Assembly (NCBI RefSeq): GCF_000336755.1
Contig: NZ_AOLK01000005.1
Span: 44,904-100,208, forward strand
DNA length: 55,305 nt
Source: Haloferax elongans ATCC BAA-1513
Lineage (GTDB): Archaea > Halobacteriota > Halobacteria > Halobacteriales > Haloferacaceae
Direction: 5' to 3'
Positions 14,493-49,639 of the stretch are shown piece after piece (positions within the stretch are counted from its first letter, which is position 1; every line of letters begins with the position of its first letter). The translations under genes and the position numbers were made by a program. Under the pieces are notes generated by a model. That model made no database searches. It was not told the origin of the DNA and saw only the letters and a list, made by a program, of their open reading frames with translations.

Positions 14493-16292
14493 ATGTACTC
14501 GATAATGGCTCCGACTCCTTCTAAACAGGAACTTGTTGATGAACTCCAGTTGTTTGCAGAGGAAGTTGGTGGTGTACCGACTGTCAGGAGCATGCGAGAC
14601 GATGGTCCGTACTCGCCTTACTACTACAAGAAAGAGTTTGGCACTTGGCATGAGGCACTCCAAGCCGCTAATATTCAACCAACTCACGGTGTCACGGCCG
14701 ATGTTAATCGGACTGAACTGATTGATGCGCTTAAAGAAGTTGACAAACAGATCGATCAGTCCCCACGGCGATCAGATGTTGAGGAATATGGAGAATATCC
14801 CTACGAACTCTACACCAAGGAGTTCGGCTCGTTCGTGATTGCGCTTGAAGAAGCAGGTATCACGCCAGCGGAGATTCAATATCGCTTTAGCAATGTAGAG
14901 GTTCCACCGGAGATGCGTGGGTCTGAAAACATAGAGAAACTCCGCAATGAGGGGCCAACGCTCTCAACTGAACTCCCACAAGATGTGAGCATGAAAGACC
15001 GGCAGCGTGGTGTCTGGGACTTCAAAATCAGCTCCGGAATGACGAAGCCGGCGCACGCGATCCACTACCTGCGAGATGAGCATGCTCCAGAGCTCGTTAT
15101 CCGACGGTTCTTTTCAGAGAATCCCCACATTTTGAAACAACGTGATCCACATGGCATCAAATTAGAGATCGGAGAACATCAACCCTCTTGGAAATCTATC
15201 GGGCAGGACATCACGGACGAACTGGTAGAGCATGGTGGAGTGGAAGGACCGTCGTTAGAGAATCTTGTACTCGTTGATATCTACGATGATGAGGATCTCC
15301 AATACTGCTTCTCGAAATCTGTTTCACAGCAGGTAAATACGTCAACACTTGTCGATGAGGAGGAATCGATCCCTAATGCGGCACGAGTATGGGGGTTCAG
15401 ACGGGAGAATCAAGAGATCTACGAGGCTCTTTCGAAAAACGATGGCCTACTATTCAGTACGGACTCCAATTCCTATACACACTACGTACCGGTGGAGGCA
15501 ACCGTCGAGAGCAGTAATTTAATGGCCGATTTGTGGGTTGAGTATGAGGACGGGACGAGAACTGGGGGAATCGATAGCCCGCGACCTAATCTAGTAGTTG
15601 GAACAGACATCCAGAGGATCGATATCCCTCGGAAGATGATCGAAAAAGAATTTACTGCAGTCCCGGATCAGGGCCCAACGAGATTGCTGACCGGCGACAC
15701 GATAGAGCCATTCGTCAATAAATACGGTACAGTAGATGCCTTTTTACGAGACCGCAAGCGATCAGAAGATCCGTTTCCTGCACACGTCGATGGCTTATGT
15801 GACACGTCAACTGTTGAAGATATTCTGGCTGTACTTCGGAAACTTTCCCACGAAGAGATCCCACAAGAGGAGATCGAGTCAGAACTCGAGTCAATCGAGC
15901 GCGAGAAACGCGAAGCAGCCTTCAGAGAAGGAGTCTACGAACTTTATGAAGGCTGTGCGGTTTGTGGATCTCGGATTGAGGGTCCTGATGGATCGCATAA
16001 CCTTGAGGCTGCACATATCCTCCCCAAGAACCAGGGGGGACCGGACGTGCTACAAAATGGAGTTGCATTGTGCAGACGCCATCACTGGGCGTTTGATAGT
16101 GGATGGTTTGATATTACGACAGAGTACAGTATTATCGTACGTGACAGACCTGACCTGGCAGGATATGATAAAATCAAATCATACGATGGTTCGTCTCTTC
16201 GTCTTCCTGAATCCAGTTCGCTACGTCCACACCCGACTTATCTTGGACAACGAAACACATTGAACGAGGTGTTTGATGAGTCCAGTACGTAG
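14493..16292 (+). CDS. HNH endonuclease with homing-endonuclease-associated repeats
   Basis: The 599-residue protein begins with two similar repeats of about 55 residues (6-60 and 66-120), each a helix, a PxxRxxxE-like turn and a Y...EFGSW/F...AL..A motif, the form associated with homing and HNH nucleases. A middle part (about 255-400) contains VWGFRRENQEIYEAL and DGLLFSTDSNSYTHYVPVEA, which resembles an EVE/PUA-like modified-base reader. The C terminus is an HNH nuclease: zinc-binding CAVCG near 488, NLEAAHILP near 505, CRRHHWAFDSG near 528. Together this suggests DNA cleavage guided by sequence or base modification, hence a restriction-type role. An alternative start is the ATG at 14505. 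Confidence 0.75.
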   Translation: MYSIMAPTPSKQELVDELQLFAEEVGGVPTVRSMRDDGPYSPYYYKKEFGTWHEALQAANIQPTHGVTADVNRTELIDALKEVDKQIDQSPRRSDVEEYGEYPYELYTKEFGSFVIALEEAGITPAEIQYRFSNVEVPPEMRGSENIEKLRNEGPTLSTELPQDVSMKDRQRGVWDFKISSGMTKPAHAIHYLRDEHAPELVIRRFFSENPHILKQRDPHGIKLEIGEHQPSWKSIGQDITDELVEHGGVEGPSLENLVLVDIYDDEDLQYCFSKSVSQQVNTSTLVDEEESIPNAARVWGFRRENQEIYEALSKNDGLLFSTDSNSYTHYVPVEATVESSNLMADLWVEYEDGTRTGGIDSPRPNLVVGTDIQRIDIPRKMIEKEFTAVPDQGPTRLLTGDTIEPFVNKYGTVDAFLRDRKRSEDPFPAHVDGLCDTSTVEDILAVLRKLSHEEIPQEEIESELESIEREKREAAFREGVYELYEGCAVCGSRIEGPDGSHNLEAAHILPKNQGGPDVLQNGVALCRRHHWAFDSGWFDITTEYSIIVRDRPDLAGYDKIKSYDGSSLRLPESSSLRPHPTYLGQRNTLNEVFDESST

Positions 16293-37952: not shown

Positions 37953-40470
37953 CCTGATTTCAACGAAGTAGCAGATTATCACTTGGAATATAACGATTCT
38001 TCAGACGGTGAACGGGAGGGCGGCTACCCGTCGGCCACCAGTATCAGAAACAAGACAGAAAAGCTATACCAGCTTGGCTTTCGTCTTCGAGATATTCTCG
38101 CTCACGCTCGGCTGCCCGCGTTCTGTCTTTCTCGCCCATTCACTCTGAGACAGTCCCTCGACTTCGACGATGGTGGTAGTCGATAGCTTCGGCGCGTTCG
38201 AGGGCCACACGTACGGCGAGATCGCCTCAAAACTCGGGTTCGGGAGAAACAACGACGACCGCTCTCAGGTGAAATACCATCTGGACGAATACCGAGAACA
38301 GCGGAAAAAGTCAAGTTGCTGCTCCAGAACGGGCCAGAAGTTTAGCCCCACCCGTCGGTACTGTTATAAGTCTCGTTCGATTAGAAATCGAGCGATAACG
38401 TGTCGGGGACGGGAGTAGACGACTTCGGAGCGCAACGACTTGAGTTAAATTTCTCCGAAACCGTCTATATCGACGGCCCGGTGACCGCGTCCATCGACAC
38501 GTGGCTACCGGGAACAGTGAATCCGCACATCACCCTCATCGCCGGTCTTCTGACCTTTGACGGCGAGATTCCCGACGACCGCGCAGAGTGGCACCACAAC
38601 TACATCCCCATCGAATCGTGGATGGCCGCCCACGTCGTCCGAGAAGTCAACGACTGGTCGATCAAGAAGTGCGCCGACCGCCTCGCCGCCGAGCGAGACC
38701 TGCCCGAGATGCTCGGGTTCTGGGCGAACAGCCCGGAAGAGGACGTTCACGCCATTCCTCCGAGCTACACGCAACTCCGCGACATCTGGGAGGAGACGTT
38801 CACCGCCCGCCACCGGGGTGCGGTCACGGTCATCGCGGAGCGTCTCGTTCCTGCCAAAGGAAGGCGTCGAGGTCGAAGAACCGACCGAAGACCACCCGAC
38901 AGTACAGGAACTGACCATCGAGAAGACGGCGGACGTGTGGGAACACGCCCGCCCGATGGTTCTCCGACACTGGCACCTGAAACGGTATCACAACTGGCAG
39001 GTGCCGGAAGCGACGTTCTACGACGCGCACGCGTATCTCGCCACGAGTTCAGACGACGTGTTCCCCGAATCAGGTCTCGGGAACATGATGGCGAAGTCCA
39101 ACCACGACCGCGTTCACTTCCCGAGTACGCACCGACGGGAGCTGAAGAAGTTCACCATCGAGGAGATACGCGAGCTGCACCAGGACGTGACCCGCGACCT
39201 CATCGCCGAGGCCCGGCGGGAGGGCGAACTCGTCGGGAAGATGAAGGTCGCCATCGACCAGACGAAGGGGCACCCGTGGACGGGTCACGTGGAACGGGAC
39301 GCCGACGGGAACAACCTTGAGCCGTGGGTTCTCGGCTACAAGAACGACAACGACACCCGCCCGCAACACTACTTCCAGTGGGCCAGCGTCCAGGTCGTCG
39401 GCCTCGACGTGCCGCTCATCCTCGACGCGATCCCCGTGAAGCGCGGCATGACGAAGGGCGAAATCGTGGACGAACTGATGGCGACCGCGAACGACCTGCT
39501 CCACGACCCGGAGATCGTCATGATGGACGCCGGGTTCGACTCGGCAGCAGCGAAGAACTCCGCTGAGAAACACGTGTCGTACTACCTGAATCGGGGTCTC
39601 GGGACGCTGACGACAAGCGGCGGATGCGCGAGATGTGGAAGAACCGCGAGACGGTTCGAATCGTCGAAGAGGAAGATCGGCCCGGTATGCCGACGCGCAA
39701 GACCATCTACGTCCCGCACATCCTCGCAAACGAAGAGGACGATGAAGACAGCGAGGGCGGGAGCGAACTGCGTCAGCAGCTACTCTCGGACTTCGAGGAG
39801 GCGGGCGGTGACGACGACCTCCCGGAGAAGTCGCCGTTCGACTCGCTCCTCGACGACATCCGCGAGGAGGAAGAAGAGGACGAAGACGAAATCGACGGCG
39901 CGGAGCAGTACGTCGTCTTCGAGACGAACCACCCACTCGCCAACAAGCGCGGCGGTCGGAACCGCGACACCATCCCCGAGCGCGAGCAGATACAGGCCGC
40001 TGCTCGGCTGGTTCGCAACTACGGGAACAGATGGGGTATCGAGAACGGCTACAAGAAGGTCGGCCACTTCTTGCCGCGTTCGGGGAGTAAAGACCCGGTA
40101 CTGCGGTTCTTCGGGTTCGCGTTCGCGGCGACGTTGTACAACTGCTGGCGACTGGTTGACCTGCTCGTGAAGCACTCCGTGGAGGACGATCCCGACTACA
40201 CGCCACTCGTGACGGCGTCGCGGTTCCTCGCTGTCGCGGAGGGCATGTTCGGTCTCGGGTCGAAACCACCGCCGGACTAACGCCGTGCCTTCCTCTGGTT
40301 TGCTGAATCGTGAGCGGCAGCGCTGTCCGGCGTTCGCCTGAATCAGCTTTCCGTTACTGCGTTCTGGTAAGTTACGATATCCGATAGAAGTTCAACTGGC
40401 TATTTTGCCGTCTGTGTCTCGAAACCGAGTGGGAACCAACCGATATCTACCCTACTTCGTTGGAATCAGG
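37953..40470 (+). mobile_element. IS4-like element, about 2.5 kb, degenerate
   Basis: The ends read CTGATTTCAACGAAGTAG at the left and CTACTTCGTTGGAATCAG at the right, inverted copies. Inside lies one frameshifted DDE transposase gene (38400-40280). The 450 bases before it are long for such an IS and include a short unrelated helix-turn-helix-like frame (38170-38330), so another fragment may be nested there. Related solo ends occur at 35894 and 40881. The element directly follows the lipoprotein gene. Confidence 0.65.
38400..40280 (+). pseudogene. IS4-like DDE transposase broken by two frameshifts
   Basis: Three successive frames together make one protein: GTG 38400 to about 38855 (VDDFGAQRLELNFSETVYID..., ending VTVIAERLV), about 38870 to 39600 (LPKEGVEVEEPTEDHPTVQE..., with KVAIDQTKG and IVMMDAGFDSA), and about 39605 to 40280 (DDKRRMREMWKNRETVRIVE..., with NRWGIENGYKK and LYNCWRLVDLL). 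The Asp of AIDQT, the Asp of MMDAGFD and the Glu of GIEN form the expected DDE triad, and the Y-x2-R-x3-E signature points to an IS4-like family. Two frameshifts near 38860 and 39600 inactivate it. Confidence 0.75.
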
Positions 40471-40949: not shown

Positions 40950-41003
40950 ATTTGCATCATTCAATGCAAATTTATAAGTTATTTGCACTCCACAATGCAA
41001 ATA
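40950..41003. promoter_or_regulatory. Two palindromic operators around a TATA box
   Basis: ATTTGCAT at 40950-40957 pairs with ATGCAAAT at 40964-40971 (6-base spacer), and TATTTGCA at 40980-40987 pairs with TGCAAATA at 40996-41003 (8-base spacer). Both share the half site TTTGCA. The TATA-like TTTATAAGTT lies between them at 40971-40980, and the start codon at 41008 follows within five bases, so the transcript is probably leaderless or nearly so. A regulator bound here would block TBP and RNA polymerase. The HTH protein encoded just downstream is the best candidate. Confidence 0.75.
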
Positions 41004-41007
41004 GAGC

Positions 41008-41940
41008 ATGAGCCAAAACATGAAAATCAGGGCCGAAAGCAACGACGAGCGGATAGCGGACGCGGAACCAACCCGAGTCGTGGCTGACGGCGGTGCCGAC
41101 GTTGAGGACTACGATATTGACCCAACCAAACTCGACTACGATGTCGAGAACCGCACAAAGGACTCGCAGAACAATCGGACAAACTACGTCTCGCGTATCA
41201 GGGGAACCGACCTCTGGGTTGCCTACCGAACGTGGCAGATGGGGTCAAGCGAGTACGACTATGCCATCAAGGGTATAGGCCGCGTCTCGTTCGAGAGTGT
41301 TGACCTCGATACCGACCACATTGCGGAGACGATCTGTGACGAGGCCGAGCGCATGCTCAGTAGTGCGCCGGACGATGATGAGGAAGCCGCCGCCCTCGCC
41401 GATGAGCTCACGATGAGGGCTGACGAACTCGCTGAGGCGCTTGAAAGGGGGTGGCAATACACGTCAACCGAATACACGCCCCGTGACCACCTCTACGAAG
41501 GCATGGCGCAGGTCGACGAAACGACCGTGTGGGTCTCGCACGTCGAGGAGGCCATCAGCCACGAGGCCGTGGACGCGCTCGAAGAAGTCGGAATCGAGCA
41601 GGACGACCATGGTTCCGTGATAGACGTTGTCCGTCAGGCACTCTATGAAGGCGTCCAGCAACGTCGCGACCACTGGATTCGCCCTCATCTCGACTACGAA
41701 GCCTGCCTCACGTTCGACGCCGAACCATGGGAACTCCGTGCACTCGAGCTACACCAGAACGGCGTCTTCCGGGGAATGATGGAGACGGCACGAGTGCAGG
41801 CCCTTCGAGAGACGGGAAAACGACCTTCCGAAATCGCCGACACTCTCGATGTCAATCCGAGCACCATCACCCGGCATAAAAACCGGGCCGACGAGTGGCT
41901 CGGCCGCGCTGAGTGGACGGCTGAGAACGTCGAACGATGA
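41008..41940 (+). CDS. HTH protein coupled to a LAGLIDADG-like gene
   Basis: The 310-residue acidic protein begins MSQNMKIRAESNDERIADAE, with a disordered first 35 residues, an alpha/beta region (YVSRIRGTDLWVAYRTWQMG near 60-80), a helical middle (AAALADELTMRADELAEALE), and a C-terminal helix-turn-helix, RETGKRPSEIADTLDVNPST followed by ITRHKNRADEWL (about 270-300), of the sigma-like or resolvase-like type used in haloarchaeal regulators. The gene overlaps the next by four bases (ATGA, 41937-41940). Two palindromes lie immediately upstream. It probably binds them and controls its own operon. The rest of the protein was not recognised. Confidence 0.6.
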   Translation: MSQNMKIRAESNDERIADAEPTRVVADGGADVEDYDIDPTKLDYDVENRTKDSQNNRTNYVSRIRGTDLWVAYRTWQMGSSEYDYAIKGIGRVSFESVDLDTDHIAETICDEAERMLSSAPDDDEEAAALADELTMRADELAEALERGWQYTSTEYTPRDHLYEGMAQVDETTVWVSHVEEAISHEAVDALEEVGIEQDDHGSVIDVVRQALYEGVQQRRDHWIRPHLDYEACLTFDAEPWELRALELHQNGVFRGMMETARVQALRETGKRPSEIADTLDVNPSTITRHKNRADEWLGRAEWTAENVER

Positions 41941-43391
41941 CAGATAGGCATAAACTCGCGGAGGGGATTTCGACCTGCTTCGAGTGCGACGAGCACTACA
42001 AGTCCATCTCCCGACATTGGGCACATAAACCCAACCACCGACCTGAGATGACCCAGCACCAGCATGAAATCATCTTCGGGTTGATTCTTGGCGGCGCATC
42101 GGTTGACACCCGTAACAAGACACCAGCATTCAAGTTTCGGACGCAGTACCGTGATTTTGCTCTGTACGTCGCTGAACAACTCGGCTGGCTGTTCGGAAGC
42201 CTCCATCGAGTCCCGCCAATGGCCGGCAGGGGCACCCATCACGCCTACACTGTACGGACACGCCCCCATCCTGAGATTGAGCGGTATGTGCCGTGGTGGG
42301 ACGAGGGAACGCTGTACGTACCTGAGGGACGTGCTATCCGACGCTGGACGGCACGCATCTGGTACGCAAAGGCTGCTCAGGTCGGTTGGAGTGGAAATCA
42401 CAATTCACGCGAATCGCGGTTCTCCGCCGCCAACGAACCCCGACGCTCGTGGATGCAGTACTACCTCCGCGAACTCGGATATGAGCCGACATATCGAGAG
42501 GGAGAGTGGTTCATCACATCAACTGCGACACGCGATCTCTTCGGATACATCGGTGGGCCTGTTCCGGGGATGGAGCACAAGTGGGCTCTCGACCGTGAGA
42601 CGTACGATGCTATCCGAGACGAACACCGAGAGGAATTGGAAAGGCTGTCGCACTGGACGGACGAACCAAAGGTGGAACTCTCGCTTTATCGCCCTGGCAC
42701 GCACCAGCCAGAAATTCCGTCTGCAGAGCCGTTGTTAGCACAGTCTGACCCGGGGAAGCAGTTCTCTCGTGTAGACTGTTTAAGAGCAATTCGGAAAGCA
42801 GGAGAGTTAGTTAGTGAACCATTGACAACAACGGTCTATGAGCGCGTCCGGCCATTGATGGTTGACGCTCCGTCGACGAGTCTCATTTCGGAGCGCTTCG
42901 GCTGGCGGGAACTCCTATTCGAAGCAGCAGGTCGGCCAGAGGGCAACAAAGCCAAATGGTCAGAATGGGAGTGTGCAGCGGCTATTGCCCAGTTTGCGGC
43001 GCAAACTGAACAACCGTGGACCATAGTAAAATACAATGCGTTCATTTCAGATTGTGAACAGAGATACCCTGCGGCACACACGATAGTACAGCGGTATGGG
43101 GGGTGGATTGCCGCTCTAAAACACTTAGCGGCCGCAGGTATATTGCACGAGGAGTTAGATCAAGTCCGTCGTCACCAGCAGAAGTGGCCAGATACCGAAA
43201 TCAAAGCGGCGATACGGGAAGCTCTTGAGGACCAGGAGGACAACACGCTTGTTGGAGAAGACTACGACGAATGGCGAAGTCGCCAACCGTCGCCCCGTCC
43301 GAGTAGGAGAACGATTATACGGCGCTACGGGCGGTGGAGCGACGCCGTTCGTCTAGTAGGTGGAAACCCCGGACGACAGGACGATGAGTAG
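41937..43391 (+). CDS. LAGLIDADG-like protein lacking the motif acid, with three repeats
   Basis: The 484-residue protein has an N-terminal Cys/His cluster (CFECDEHYKSISRHWAH, residues 14-30), then HEIIFGLILGGASVD near 43-57, which aligns with the LAGLIDADG helix (usually GLLLGDGS), followed by strands typical of the fold (PAFKFRTQYRDFALYVAEQL). The acidic residue of the motif is replaced by Gly-Gly-Ala. The C-terminal part has three repeats of 55-60 residues (about 275-335, 340-400, 410-475), each ending in RFGWRELLFEA, RYGGWIAALKHLA or RYGRWSDAVRLVG, the homing-endonuclease-associated repeat also seen at 14493-16292. It may bind DNA without cutting it. Start overlaps the HTH gene. Confidence 0.65.
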   Translation: MTDRHKLAEGISTCFECDEHYKSISRHWAHKPNHRPEMTQHQHEIIFGLILGGASVDTRNKTPAFKFRTQYRDFALYVAEQLGWLFGSLHRVPPMAGRGTHHAYTVRTRPHPEIERYVPWWDEGTLYVPEGRAIRRWTARIWYAKAAQVGWSGNHNSRESRFSAANEPRRSWMQYYLRELGYEPTYREGEWFITSTATRDLFGYIGGPVPGMEHKWALDRETYDAIRDEHREELERLSHWTDEPKVELSLYRPGTHQPEIPSAEPLLAQSDPGKQFSRVDCLRAIRKAGELVSEPLTTTVYERVRPLMVDAPSTSLISERFGWRELLFEAAGRPEGNKAKWSEWECAAAIAQFAAQTEQPWTIVKYNAFISDCEQRYPAAHTIVQRYGGWIAALKHLAAAGILHEELDQVRRHQQKWPDTEIKAAIREALEDQEDNTLVGEDYDEWRSRQPSPRPSRRTIIRRYGRWSDAVRLVGGNPGRQDDE

Positions 43392-43578: not shown

Positions 43579-43760
43579 ACCGCCTCGGGGTCAAGCCCCG
43601 AGGCTTCTTCCCGTGGTTTAATCAGATACTCCCACCTGACCATCGGCCTGATAGCCTCGGGCGGTCGGGTGGGTCACGGTCGGGCTGTCCACAAGCCCCG
43701 ATGCCTGCCGTCGCACCTTCCGAACAACGGGAAGGCTGTTGAGAGCAGGCACATTCCAAT
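43579..43760 (-). ncRNA. Candidate TnpB guide RNA (omega RNA) region
   Basis: In IS605-type elements the TnpB guide RNA comes from the 3' end of tnpB and the adjoining element end. Here that is the minus-strand region covering the last TnpB codons and the hairpin at 43583-43603. The guide would be read from the flanking DNA, beginning near 43576 and running into the IS4-like relic. This is expected from the family; no transcript can be seen in sequence alone. Confidence 0.4.
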
Positions 43761-44892
43761 CGAGTTTCTTCACGCCTTTCACGGCGATGTTGACGCTTGC
43801 ACCACGGTCGCTGTGGTCTTGATGCCCACAGGACTTGCACTTGAACCGCTTCTTGTTGCGGTTCGCACGCTCGGCGTGTCCGCACATCGGACACCGCTGG
43901 CTAGTGTATTCGGGGTTAATCCACGCAGTCGGGATACCCTCGAACGACGCCTTGTACGATGTATAGAACTGGAGGGCGCGGAAGGGAAGGTGGTGCAACC
44001 GTCGGTTCATCCGCGTGCCGTAGTCGATACTGTCGCGCATCTCTTTGAGGTCTTCAAAGACGATGCACGGCTTCTCGAACTGACGGCTCCACTCCACGAT
44101 GTGACGGCTTACCTTGTGGAGTCGGTCGCGGACAAACCGTTCTTCACGCCCTTCGAGTGTGTCGTGGATGCTGTCTTTCCCCGCGTTCTGAACACGCTTT
44201 CGCATCGTGAAGTAGCGGTGGCGCTCGAACTTGATTTCGGGAAAGTCGATAACCAACGTGTCTTCGACACCATCCTCTGAGAGAGCGGTGAGAGCCACGT
44301 TGTCCTCGTTCACATCCACGCCGACGACCGTCCGCGAGTCGTGCTTGTCTCGCACGGTCTGCTCGGTGTTGGTAACGTTAACGTGTAGTTCGGCGTTGTC
44401 GTTGTGGAACAGGGCTTCCGCCGTCCCAATCTTCCACTCGTCGTTTTCGAGCGCGATCTTGAGAATGTCGAGGTGAGCGTCACTCCCTTTGAGGACGCCC
44501 TTGACGTGCTTGTACGGTTTCGCGCTGATTCGGAACGCCACGTCGCCATCGTCGGTGAGCGACAGGTTGTACCCCTCCTCGTAGTTCGCACGAAGCGGGT
44601 ACGAACCACCCTTGGTGTGACTGGGGAGTCCGAAGTCGTCGTACTCGTAGTAGTTCTCCATCGCTCCGAGAGCCTTGGCGACAACGCGCTGAGTCGTGTT
44701 TTTCACGAGGTTGGCGTCGTCGGCTACGCGGTCGGGAATCGCGTTCCAGTCCACACCTTCTTTGGCGAGACGGGTGGTTTCGTTGTACACCGAGCGGGCT
44801 TCAAGCGTGGCGTCGTACAACAGGCTCTCGTTGTCACTCTGGATGTTGAGTTGGAAGTCCAGAGTCTTGACGAGAGCCTGTGAGTCGGTCAT
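43618..44892 (-). CDS. tnpB: TnpB RNA-guided nuclease of IS605
   Basis: The 424-residue protein has an N-terminal helical domain (MTDSQALVKTLDFQLNIQSD...) and a split RuvC-like nuclease: VVGVDVNEDNVALTAL near 190 (first Asp), CIVFEDLKEMRDS near 276 (Glu), and HSDRGASVNIA near 365 (last Asp). Between the last two lies a four-cysteine zinc finger, CPMCGH...CKSCGH, near 336-358. The set is complete, so it should be active as an RNA-guided DNA nuclease that helps the element persist. The C-terminal 50 residues are an acidic/basic tail usual in haloarchaeal TnpB. Its ATG overlaps the TGA of the DUF2080-like gene. Confidence 0.9.
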   Translation of the reverse strand: MTDSQALVKTLDFQLNIQSDNESLLYDATLEARSVYNETTRLAKEGVDWNAIPDRVADDANLVKNTTQRVVAKALGAMENYYEYDDFGLPSHTKGGSYPLRANYEEGYNLSLTDDGDVAFRISAKPYKHVKGVLKGSDAHLDILKIALENDEWKIGTAEALFHNDNAELHVNVTNTEQTVRDKHDSRTVVGVDVNEDNVALTALSEDGVEDTLVIDFPEIKFERHRYFTMRKRVQNAGKDSIHDTLEGREERFVRDRLHKVSRHIVEWSRQFEKPCIVFEDLKEMRDSIDYGTRMNRRLHHLPFRALQFYTSYKASFEGIPTAWINPEYTSQRCPMCGHAERANRNKKRFKCKSCGHQDHSDRGASVNIAVKGVKKLDWNVPALNSLPVVRKVRRQASGLVDSPTVTHPTARGYQADGQVGVSD

Positions 44893-45620: not shown

Positions 45621-46859
45621 TCACATCGGCGCGAACTCTTCACCGGAGTCGGGGAGATACTCGATGATACTGCGGTGGGCGCCGAAGTCACTGATAATCG
45701 TCTGGAGTGCGTCGACGACGGTTGCGATGTCGCGATTGAGTTGGTGTTCGCGATACGTACCGCCGTCCTGTCCGCGGTGTTCCATCGCCGAGAGCGTCAG
45801 GTTGAGAATCTCGAAGTCAGAAAGGAAACTTCGCATGCGGCGTGCCGTCCGTGGGTCTCGATTCTGGAACTCGCAGAGTTCTTTGTACCGTTGATACACC
45901 ACGCGTGAGCGCGCAGGCGTTGCGTTTTCAGCCGCGAGGGTGGTCAGCGCATAGAGGGTGAGTTGCTCGTGTTCGGTGAGGTCCCGCATGATATCCATGC
46001 TCTGTTGGGCCTCGAGTTTCTCCTGGGCGCGTTCGACGTGGTCGGTCGTCACTGCTTCGGCATTCTCGGTGCGAGCGAGGTCACCGGCTTTCCGGAGAAG
46101 AGTGATCGCTCGTCGTGCATCCCCACCATCTTGGCGCCCGAGGGCCGCACAAAGTGGAATTACCCCATCCTCGAGCGCGCTCTGGTGGAACGCGATGTCG
46201 GCCCGTTGGTCGAGGACCTTCTGGAGTTCTTCAGTTCCGTATGGGGGAAACGAGATCTCGGTTTCACAGAGAGACGACTGCACCTTTGCGTCGAGCTGTT
46301 CACGGAACGTCGAATCATTACTGATCCCGATCAACCCGAGTTGGATATTCTCGATGTACCCATTGTTGTCCGCGCGCGTGATCTGATAGAGGAAAGTGTC
46401 GTCAGTAATGTGGTCGATCTCGTCGAGGACGATGATCACGGTCCCCGAGAGTTTGTTCAATTCGTTCCATAGGAGACGGTAGACCTTCGACTGGGGGTGA
46501 CCAGTTTCGGCGATATGGTGTTCAGGATCACGGAGCGTATTCACGAGACTGATCGCCGCCTGGTAACTCGTGCTCAGTCCATCACAATTCAACGAGATTA
46601 CAGACAGGTCAACGTCGAAGTGTGCTGCCGAGTCCTGCAATTCATTCAATAAAAAGTTCGTGACGGCCGTCTTCCCAACACCCGTCTTCCCATAAATGAA
46701 GATATTGTCGGGGTACTCACCGTTGATGATCGGCTGCAACGCCGCCTCGTACTCCTCGATTTCGTTGTCTCGACCAACGATATCGTCTGGGACGTACTCC
46801 ACTTTGAGCGTATTTCGTCGTTTGTAGAGCGTATCGTCCGGCTGAAAGCGAGGAGTCAT
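45621..46859 (-). CDS. orc1/cdc6: Orc1/Cdc6 replication initiator
   Basis: The 412-residue protein starts MTPRFQPDDTLYKRRNTLKV and has the AAA+ core of archaeal Orc1/Cdc6: IVGRDNEIEEYEAAL near 28, Walker A IYGKTGVGKT near 54-63, Walker B TVIIVLDEIDHI near 140, sensor 1 in GISNDSTF near 178, an arginine-containing sensor 2 stretch GDARRAITLLRKAGD near 245, and a C-terminal winged helix from about 290 (ALTTLAAENATPARSRVVYQ; ILNLTLSAMEHRGQDGGTYR). It binds origin boxes, which lie immediately upstream at 46914-47570 and 47743. The gene is transcribed away from the origin, the usual arrangement. Confidence 0.92.
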   Translation of the reverse strand: MTPRFQPDDTLYKRRNTLKVEYVPDDIVGRDNEIEEYEAALQPIINGEYPDNIFIYGKTGVGKTAVTNFLLNELQDSAAHFDVDLSVISLNCDGLSTSYQAAISLVNTLRDPEHHIAETGHPQSKVYRLLWNELNKLSGTVIIVLDEIDHITDDTFLYQITRADNNGYIENIQLGLIGISNDSTFREQLDAKVQSSLCETEISFPPYGTEELQKVLDQRADIAFHQSALEDGVIPLCAALGRQDGGDARRAITLLRKAGDLARTENAEAVTTDHVERAQEKLEAQQSMDIMRDLTEHEQLTLYALTTLAAENATPARSRVVYQRYKELCEFQNRDPRTARRMRSFLSDFEILNLTLSAMEHRGQDGGTYREHQLNRDIATVVDALQTIISDFGAHRSIIEYLPDSGEEFAPM

Positions 46860-48017: not shown

Positions 48018-48407
48018 ATGAAGACCACACGGCACGCAACGTACAACCTCAACTACCACATAGTGTGGATACCGAAGTACCGTCGGTCGGTACTCGTCGG
48101 TGACGTTGCGACTCGTGTGCGAGACATCCTCCACGAAATAGCCGACGAGAAAGGGTTGGAGATTATCGACCTCACCGTCCAACCAGACCACATTCACCTG
48201 TTCGTCAGTAGCCCGCCGAAACACGCCCCGTCACTTCTCGCCAACTGGTTCAAAGGCATCAGTTCGCGGAAATACAACCATCGCCACGCCGACCACGACG
48301 GCGAGAAAATCAAGTGGACGCGAGGCTACTACGCAGGCACGGCGGGCCACGTTTCGAGTGAGACTGTCGAGAAGTACATCCAGCGTCACGAGGAGGACGA
48401 ACAGTGA
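48018..48407 (+). CDS. tnpA: TnpA Y1 HUH transposase, second element
   Basis: The 129-residue protein has YHIVWIPKYRRSVL near residue 14, the HUH motif in QPDHIHLFVSSPP near 57, and the tyrosine region GYYAGTAGHVSSETVEKYIQ near 104-123. These are the complete catalytic features of IS200/IS605 TnpA. Its last codons overlap the start of tnpB (48404-48407, GTGA). Sequence differs clearly from the TnpA at 45098, and the hairpin ends differ too, which agrees with end-specific recognition. Confidence 0.9.
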   Translation: MKTTRHATYNLNYHIVWIPKYRRSVLVGDVATRVRDILHEIADEKGLEIIDLTVQPDHIHLFVSSPPKHAPSLLANWFKGISSRKYNHRHADHDGEKIKWTRGYYAGTAGHVSSETVEKYIQRHEEDEQ

Positions 48408-49639
48408 CCGAACTCACCGAGACGCTGGAACTGAAGCTCGTGGAACCGAACGCCCACAAGCATCGGAAACTCTGTGAGACGAAACAGGCGTACCAAGACG
48501 CCCTTGAAGCCGCGTTCAACGCTAACTGTACCACACAGTCGGCGGCGAACGACGTGGTTGTCAACTACGACCTGAGTGGGTACGCGAAGAACGCGCTCAA
48601 GAAGTACGTCCCACAACTCTGTGGTGGAAGCTACGACGCGAAGGAGCTTCACGACGACCACCCCGTTCGGTTCACGAACGAAGGCCCGAAGCTCGACCAC
48701 AAGCCACAGAACGCCATCGAGTGGTACGTCAAAATCCCGCACCACGACGACTACCACCTCTGGTTGCCCGCGCAACCGAATCCCGAACAGCGGGAGTGGT
48801 TGGAAGCGTTGCACGCGGGGGACGCGAAGATGGGCAAATGTCGGTTGTTCGACCGTGACGGCGAATGGTACTTCCACATCGTCGCCACGCGAGACGTGGA
48901 GGAGCGAGAAACCAGTTCGGCGGAGACGCCGATTGGGGTAGACATCGGGGAAGCCTCTTTGTTAACGGTGTGTCACCGTGACGAGCGCGGCTCCCCGACT
49001 GCTCCCAACCTCTGGAACGACGAAGGCAAGGCGGTTCGACAACTCCGTGAGACGTACTTCACGGCGACCCGACGCCTTCAGCAACGCGGAAGCGAACGTA
49101 TCGCTGAATCCTACGGTGACGAGCTGTGGCGGCACATTGACCACATCCTTCACACGGTCACGTCAGAGGTCGTCGCCTACGCCGACCAATTCGAGAACCC
49201 CGTGTTGGTACTCGAAGACTTGACTCACATCCGTGAGAACATGGATTACGGCGCGTTCATGAACCGTCGCCTTCACGGATGGGGATTTGCGAAGATGCAC
49301 GCTCAGATTCGCTACAAGGCGGCTGAGAAAGGGATTCGTGTGGAGACAGTGAACCCCTCGTATACCTCGAAGACGTGCCACTGTTGCGGAGAGACGGGCT
49401 ACCGTCCGAAGCAGGCGACGTTCAAGTGTTCCAACTCGGCGTGTTGGGTTTCGGAGTACCAAGCAGACGTTAACGCCGCGCTCAATATTGCAGACCGCTA
49501 CCTCAGCGGAGAGAGCCATTCAAGAGAACACACGAGTGGCGATGACTCGGCTGAGGAAGGGGGACGTTTGACCGTCCCACAAGACAGCCAAGCCGATGCT
49601 GACACCCAGCAAGAGACGCTTGGAACGTACGCGTCTTGA
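48404..49639 (+). CDS. tnpB: TnpB RNA-guided nuclease, second element
   Basis: Starting at GTG 48404 (MTELTETLELKLVEPNAHKH) the 411-residue protein has the RuvC-like triad: IGVDIGEASLLTVCHRD near 174 (Asp), VLVLEDLTHIREN near 268 (Glu), and SEYQADVNAALNIADRY near 352 (Asp), with zinc-finger cysteines CHCCGE and CSNSACW near 326-345. It belongs to a different TnpB branch from the one at 43618, judged from its N terminus and zinc finger spacing. The element's right-end hairpin follows the stop by about 40 bases, so a guide RNA should span that region. Confidence 0.88.
   Translation: MTELTETLELKLVEPNAHKHRKLCETKQAYQDALEAAFNANCTTQSAANDVVVNYDLSGYAKNALKKYVPQLCGGSYDAKELHDDHPVRFTNEGPKLDHKPQNAIEWYVKIPHHDDYHLWLPAQPNPEQREWLEALHAGDAKMGKCRLFDRDGEWYFHIVATRDVEERETSSAETPIGVDIGEASLLTVCHRDERGSPTAPNLWNDEGKAVRQLRETYFTATRRLQQRGSERIAESYGDELWRHIDHILHTVTSEVVAYADQFENPVLVLEDLTHIRENMDYGAFMNRRLHGWGFAKMHAQIRYKAAEKGIRVETVNPSYTSKTCHCCGETGYRPKQATFKCSNSACWVSEYQADVNAALNIADRYLSGESHSREHTSGDDSAEEGGRLTVPQDSQADADTQQETLGTYAS

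Follow-up and report, generated by a model that had tools for sequence, protein, structure and literature searches.

The 484-aa protein encoded at 41937-43391 (+) of the window, by which we mean the whole 55,305-nucleotide stretch of Haloferax elongans DNA that was analysed, is predicted from profile matches and a modelled structure to be a zinc-finger LAGLIDADG protein that is catalytically dead and bears homing-endonuclease-associated repeats at its C-terminus. The best explanation of its origin is that the gene goes back to an I-SceI-like homing endonuclease of haloarchaea, one that was encoded free-standing and had a zinc finger at its N-terminus. As to what it has become, we propose, with belief and doubt about evenly balanced, that an I-SceI-like enzyme became a co-regulator that binds DNA without cutting it and accompanies an autoregulated helix-turn-helix (HTH) protein, in effect 'WhiA in two genes'.

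The homing-endonuclease ancestry that the initial annotation had proposed is supported by both a profile match and the predicted fold. Residues 36-218 match the PHROG 11023 profile 'homing endonuclease with LAGLIDADG motif' (E 4.6e-20), and Pfam LAGLIDADG_2 is matched slightly below its cut-off (E 5.6e-5; 23.6 bits against 25). In an AlphaFold2 model for which the input was 26 family sequences, pLDDT exceeds 90 across most of residues 10-230 and the order of elements is that of two LAGLIDADG repeats (alpha-beta-beta-alpha-beta-beta-alpha); the I-SceI-like two-repeat domain is placed at residues 39-232 (42051-42632, +) by the PHROG profile and the predicted fold. The fold that had been expected from structure prediction is also what comparison with known structures returned: I-SceI ranks at the top in Foldseek (E 4.9e-7), and VIA-align gives Z 17.2 both for I-SceI (201 residues) and for I-WcaI. 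The family sequence profile matches I-SceI as well (E 0.0028), and in the profile alignment the family's LGDG and W-x-x-x-DG fall on GLILGDAYI and WFMDDGG of I-SceI, which we take to carry its catalytic Asp44 and Asp145. The N-terminal Cys/His cluster seen at the outset, a putative zinc site at residues 14-34 (C14, C17, H27, H34; 41976-42038, +), recurs in the alignments of most relatives, where C14, C17 and H27 are followed by a fourth His or Cys. Three C-terminal repeats had also been claimed (approximately residues 276-476; 42762-43364, +); two of them are recovered as stretches matching Pfam HNH_repeat PF18780 above its cut-off (30.3 against 26 bits), and the third is seen by eye and agrees with three four-helix groups in a partly low-confidence region of the model.

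Both catalytic acids are missing from the aligned motifs. In the first, FGLILGGASVD (residues 47-57; 42075-42107, +), Gly53 (codon 42093-42095) occupies the column that holds the Asp of LGDG in relatives, in an 18-row alignment and in the profile-aligned relatives alike, which bears out the acid loss that the initial annotation had read in this motif; the dead second motif had been missed. In that second motif the family alignment sets ARIWYAKAAQV (42351-42383, +) against ARVWYACDGTL in relatives, with Asp replaced by Ala146 (codon 42372-42374). Relatives were scored where 130 or more columns could be aligned. Of these 53, 38 keep Asp at both motifs, 13 have lost both and two are fragments without the first motif; loss of a single acid is seen in none of the fully covered rows, both being gone together in all 13 scored dead rows. 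Rows below 130 columns, and hence outside this count, include L084, L075, L077, L021 (dead and frame-broken) and L049, a two-piece match that keeps the Asp of motif 1 and has Ala in motif 2. The Asp of SVD had been named as a residue that might serve as catalytic acid instead. This residue, Asp57, lies four positions from the site of the lost acid, and in acid-bearing L002 (LGDGSVD) and L026 its counterpart in the alignment is present beside the catalytic Asp; because acid-bearing relatives such as L002 have the SVD Asp in addition to the catalytic one, it is not a replacement acid. That the protein still cuts through other residues is extremely improbable: we found no support for it, and at the second site WYAKAAQV holds no acid at or adjoining the position. 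As far as sequence and fold can tell, the predicted loss of cutting is secure.

The LAGLIDADG family is present in 20 of the 170 genomes of the window's taxonomic family and in 49 of the 392 of its order; five further family searches, whose samples overlap the order sample of 392 genomes, found it in 23/146, 6/28, 4/26, 2/18 and 3/125 genomes, and members also occur in 14 phage records and five plasmids. Two scans of viral_contigs returned no relative. The haloarchaeal viral proteins HVTV-1 gp143, HRTV-7 gp85 and VOLN27B belong to the same zinc-finger LAGLIDADG family but, unlike the 484-aa protein, keep both Asp and are encoded free-standing among viral genes. A gene with PCNA C-terminal sequence lies directly upstream of 11 of the 38 acid-bearing rows (L004, L005, L006, L008-L012, L014, L067, L086), as confirmed by Pfam for L004, the one tested, and the 3' end of this sliding-clamp gene is a probable homing site of acid-bearing relatives; some others are free-standing homing genes behind thymidylate synthase. 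Dead members of the window's type comprise the window protein, L071 (= L094), L022, L047 (= L129) and the frame-broken L021; in L071 a C-terminal extension contains a sub-threshold HNH_repeat, and the protein gives a likewise sub-threshold match to Pfam WhiA (E 0.013; 16 of 23.2 bits). Another dead type carries LWLAGATV (L078, L079, L080), and L081, L085 and L087 are single dead ones. A solo dead type with a LILRGATV-like motif 1 (L083, L082, L084, L074, L076, L075, L077, L118) and an unrecognisable second motif is spread over several haloarchaeal families, and is perhaps a second domestication with another role.

The coupling to an HTH protein that had been claimed takes the form of an ATGA overlap (41937-41940, +), in which the ATG at 41937 overlaps the TGA at 41938-41940 that ends a 310-aa partner gene (41008-41940, +). 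The partner has an acidic N-terminal part, with a net charge of -37 over residues 1-245, and an HTH-bearing C-terminus (residues 258-307; 41779-41928, +), which is matched by Pfam HTH_23 below the cut-off (E 7.5e-4) and modelled as helices at pLDDT of about 84; the remainder of the model is poor (mean pLDDT 59.7) and too weak for a fold search. In a scan of ORFs of at least 60 aa ending no more than 30 nt from a start, the same 4-nt ATGA overlap with an upstream gene was found in the window, in L071 (Haloarcula amylovorans), in L022 (Natrinema pallidum pNPA70) and in L047 (G248); all 38 acid-bearing relatives lacked it. A Sigma70_r4_2 HTH (E 1.1e-8) is present in the protein encoded ahead of L047, those ahead of L071 and L022 have ends that look HTH-like by eye and are without a Pfam match, and 39 nt ahead of the frame-broken L021 lies a gene for a 101-aa protein of winged-HTH-like type (CggR_N, sub-threshold). 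No homologue of the window partner was found beside the other three coupled loci, and the link is therefore one of kind (HTH), not of ancestry. The acid-bearing relative L002/L069 follows an HTH-like gene at a distance of 9 nt, and the product of that gene is a homologue of the pNPA70 partner (30.5% across 91% of its length); HTH neighbourhood alone therefore does not amount to conversion. Matches to the partner itself occur in 7 of the 167 genomes of the window's family, its own among them; five are to the N-terminal part without the HTH and one is to the HTH alone, and a search of plasmids found no homologue.

The palindromes that had been described at the operon promoter proved to be two dyads that flank a TATA-like box and are unique in the genome. 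The operator-like dyad 1, ATTTGCATcattcaATGCAAAT (40950-40971), lies upstream of the box TTTATAAG (40971-40978, +), which was picked out by eye about 34 nt before the start codon and is presumably TATA-like, judging from haloarchaeal promoters; dyad 2, TATTTGCActccacaaTGCAAATA (40980-41003), lies between the box and the start codon, and the two are 31 bp apart from centre to centre. The dyad count at this promoter was matched by 3 of 500 dinucleotide shuffles, and the pattern TTTGCA-N6-12-TGCAAA occurs in the 3.95-Mb genome at these two sites only, a reversed control pattern giving 0 matches. Across seven promoters an inverted pair is present in five, being strong in three (L022, L069 and L156, where 0 of 300 shuffles reached the statistic in each case) and weak taken alone in the window and L071 (13 and 12 of 300); L047 and L021, at 143 and 293 of 300, have no significant pair. 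On a Natronorubrum daqingense plasmid (L156), a partner that shares 51% identity with the pNPA70 one keeps the L022 operator half-sites TTGGTAGTAAT...ATTACTACC, while the gene that follows encodes a 353-aa protein rather than a LAGLIDADG protein and the plasmid is absent from the LAGLIDADG matches. Because L156 keeps the operator without a LAGLIDADG gene, it is apparently the HTH protein, and not the LAGLIDADG protein, to which the operators belong. Binding of the window dyads by the HTH protein may be supposed, with indirect support from the conservation of the operator between L022 and L156. Two consecutive HTH-like genes are seen at L156:2101-4223, with GGTAGTA/TACTACC-like inverted half-sites at each promoter (the second by eye), and perhaps represent a family of self-regulated plasmid regulators.

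Conversion into a co-regulator would have begun with copies of the lineage settling directly behind HTH regulator genes on plasmid-type replicons, where both catalytic Asp would have been lost and the fold, the zinc finger and the basic DNA-facing sheet retained. The HTH protein would repress its own promoter through the two dyads flanking the TATA box, and the LAGLIDADG protein, produced from the same mRNA by way of the start/stop overlap, would bind DNA without cutting it and act as co-regulator of the HTH protein, with the C-terminal repeats as possible extra DNA-binding modules. We infer DNA binding, the partnership of the two proteins, repression and the choice of controlled genes; regulation by the 484-aa protein is suggested by the coupling to an HTH gene, the paired dyads, the retained basic sheet and, by analogy, the precedent of WhiA.

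Compared with I-SceI and I-WcaI-type enzymes (LAGLIDADG_2, PHROG 11023), the 484-aa protein is alike in the two-repeat fold of its N-terminal half and in the aligned motifs, but it is without both catalytic Asp, it has the N-terminal Cys/His cluster and the C-terminal repeats, and its gene follows an HTH gene rather than being intron-encoded. I-TevI is a homing endonuclease of the GIY-YIG type. It is described as acting as a promoter-binding transcriptional autorepressor that has kept its nuclease (PMC3943268), whereas the 484-aa protein has lost its cutting residues and the operators go with the HTH protein. WhiA, the precedent for our proposal, is described as a transcription factor that combines a degenerate LAGLIDADG domain with an HTH (PMC3781837; PMC7282813), and the role of the degenerate homing-endonuclease domain was described in 2013 as unknown (PMC3781837). 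DUF199/WhiA resembles the 484-aa protein in having a LAGLIDADG domain without catalytic residues and an association with an HTH, and VIA-align of our model against WhiA in the RNA polymerase complex (8dy7) gives Z 10.7. However, WhiA is a bacterial protein that carries its HTH on the same chain, whereas here the HTH is encoded by a separate upstream gene and the setting is haloarchaeal; the LAGLIDADG domain of the 484-aa protein is nearer to I-SceI, and its C-terminus is of the HNH_repeat type, not an HTH. The Pfam WhiA models gave no match to it at E 1. The kind of protein is already known from WhiA, and the lineage and layout are new as far as searched: the titles and abstract beginnings seen in the open-licence literature describe no such haloarchaeal case of a dead LAGLIDADG protein with an HTH protein. 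We raise, as a tentative possibility that leans towards doubt, a separate archaeal origin of LAGLIDADG-based regulators, independent of bacterial WhiA, in which dead zinc-finger LAGLIDADG proteins on haloarchaeal plasmids, some of them with homing-endonuclease-associated repeats, would act in trans with interchangeable autoregulating HTH repressors, which would control the shared operon through paired dyads on either side of the TATA box. If our proposal is true, the HTH protein and the dead LAGLIDADG protein, being separate genes in an order where acid-bearing sisters still live, could be tested for their contributions one by one, and the case would show stages by which a selfish nuclease turns into a regulator.

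A further check named in the initial annotation was whether the acid is lost throughout a coupled clade. The loss is indeed present in the three other ATGA-overlapped relatives; a single dead clade is neither shown nor rejected. Two fragments (L013, L093) were removed before both sets of trees. The 51-row tree suffers from long-branch distortion and requires the dead label to change four times; for the 36-row trees, 15 of the 51 rows were removed, both dead (L081, L085, L087, L078, L079, L015, L082, L074, L076) and acid-bearing (L031, L030, L017, L029, L016, L028). With all columns, the four coupled dead proteins fall on one branch (94/81). The claim of a single dead clade based on this branch fell away once the motif columns were omitted: L071, L022 and L047 then group together (96/97), the window is placed weakly with acid-bearing L072 (54/68), and the tree test does not reject a single dead clade (p-AU 0.277), so that either one loss or two would fit.

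The main rival to conversion is that the 484-aa protein is a homing endonuclease in its degenerative phase, which landed behind an HTH gene and was inactivated by point mutations, its ORF being open by chance. The ordinary free-standing homing genes behind PCNA or thymidylate synthase would fit such a history, as would L002/L069, which keeps both acids behind an HTH-like gene, the dead and frame-broken L021, and several relatives that are interrupted by stops. We nevertheless consider it unlikely. The coupled dead proteins have open reading frames despite differing at 54-69% of residues, both acids are lost together in every scored dead row, and extra C-terminal repeats are found at two loci, the second sub-threshold. 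A net basic sheet is kept in all four coupled dead proteins (window +4, L071 +7, L022 +5, L047 +2, at sheet positions taken from secondary structure rather than from a solvent or DNA-facing calculation), against a mean of +2.9 in the 38 acid-bearing rows and -3, -2, 0 and -1 in four solo LILRGATV-type rows, where the basic charge is lost. For a clean dN/dS the 484-aa protein has no close relatives, the best being 33% identical (intact) and 37% (frame-broken L021), and five coupled dead pairs gave 0.33-0.61, a range that, with dS saturated, favours neither side. Three pairs of solo dead relatives gave 0.21, 0.17 and 0.22 (the two LILRGATV-type pairs 0.17-0.21), values that count against the rival; another solo pair gave 0.36, one more was without a dS estimate, and two acid-bearing pairs gave 0.13 and 0.05.

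Two other roles can be imagined for a protein of this anatomy and setting. If it were not a transcription regulator but an accessory factor that helps to maintain the replicon, through origin recognition, copy control or partition, it would be in keeping with the Orc1/Cdc6-like genes close to the coupled pair in three of the four settings (window, pNPA70 and the G248 locus), with the ParA of the window and pNPA70, and with the apparent gene row of G248 (L152:7600-10394), which reads Cdc6-like, 154-aa protein, sigma-70 region 4-like HTH protein and dead LAGLIDADG. Such a role is improbable in our view, as no Orc1/Cdc6-like gene similar to that of the window was found in the 35 kb taken around the H. 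amylovorans-type locus, and Orc1/Cdc6-like and ParA-type genes are common on haloarchaeal plasmids. An anti-homing shield, in which a non-cutting protein covers the site targeted by active relatives and thereby guards its own replicon against invasion, would agree with an anatomy that predicts specific binding without cutting and with the presence of family members of any kind in the 49 genomes of the order noted above; but the genomes of the window, L094 and L047 hold one family match each and no acid-bearing relative, and the link to HTH genes is left unexplained, which makes a shield quite improbable.

In its wider setting the window also encodes TraG/TrwB-like ATPases, Orc1/Cdc6 (45621-46859), ParA, two TnpB-like proteins and an HNH endonuclease with HNH_repeats, a content that fits a plasmid or an integrated conjugative-type element. 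Defence-system models gave no match. The HNH endonuclease (14493-16292, +) is a 599-aa protein with N-terminal homing-endonuclease-associated repeats and Pfam HNH_2, and comparison with the C-terminal repeats of the 484-aa protein gave no meaningful similarity. The two TnpB-like (Cas12f1-like TNB) proteins are encoded near the operon at 43618-44892 (-) and 48404-49639 (+), and an apparent frame-broken transposase can be seen by eye at 38400-40280.
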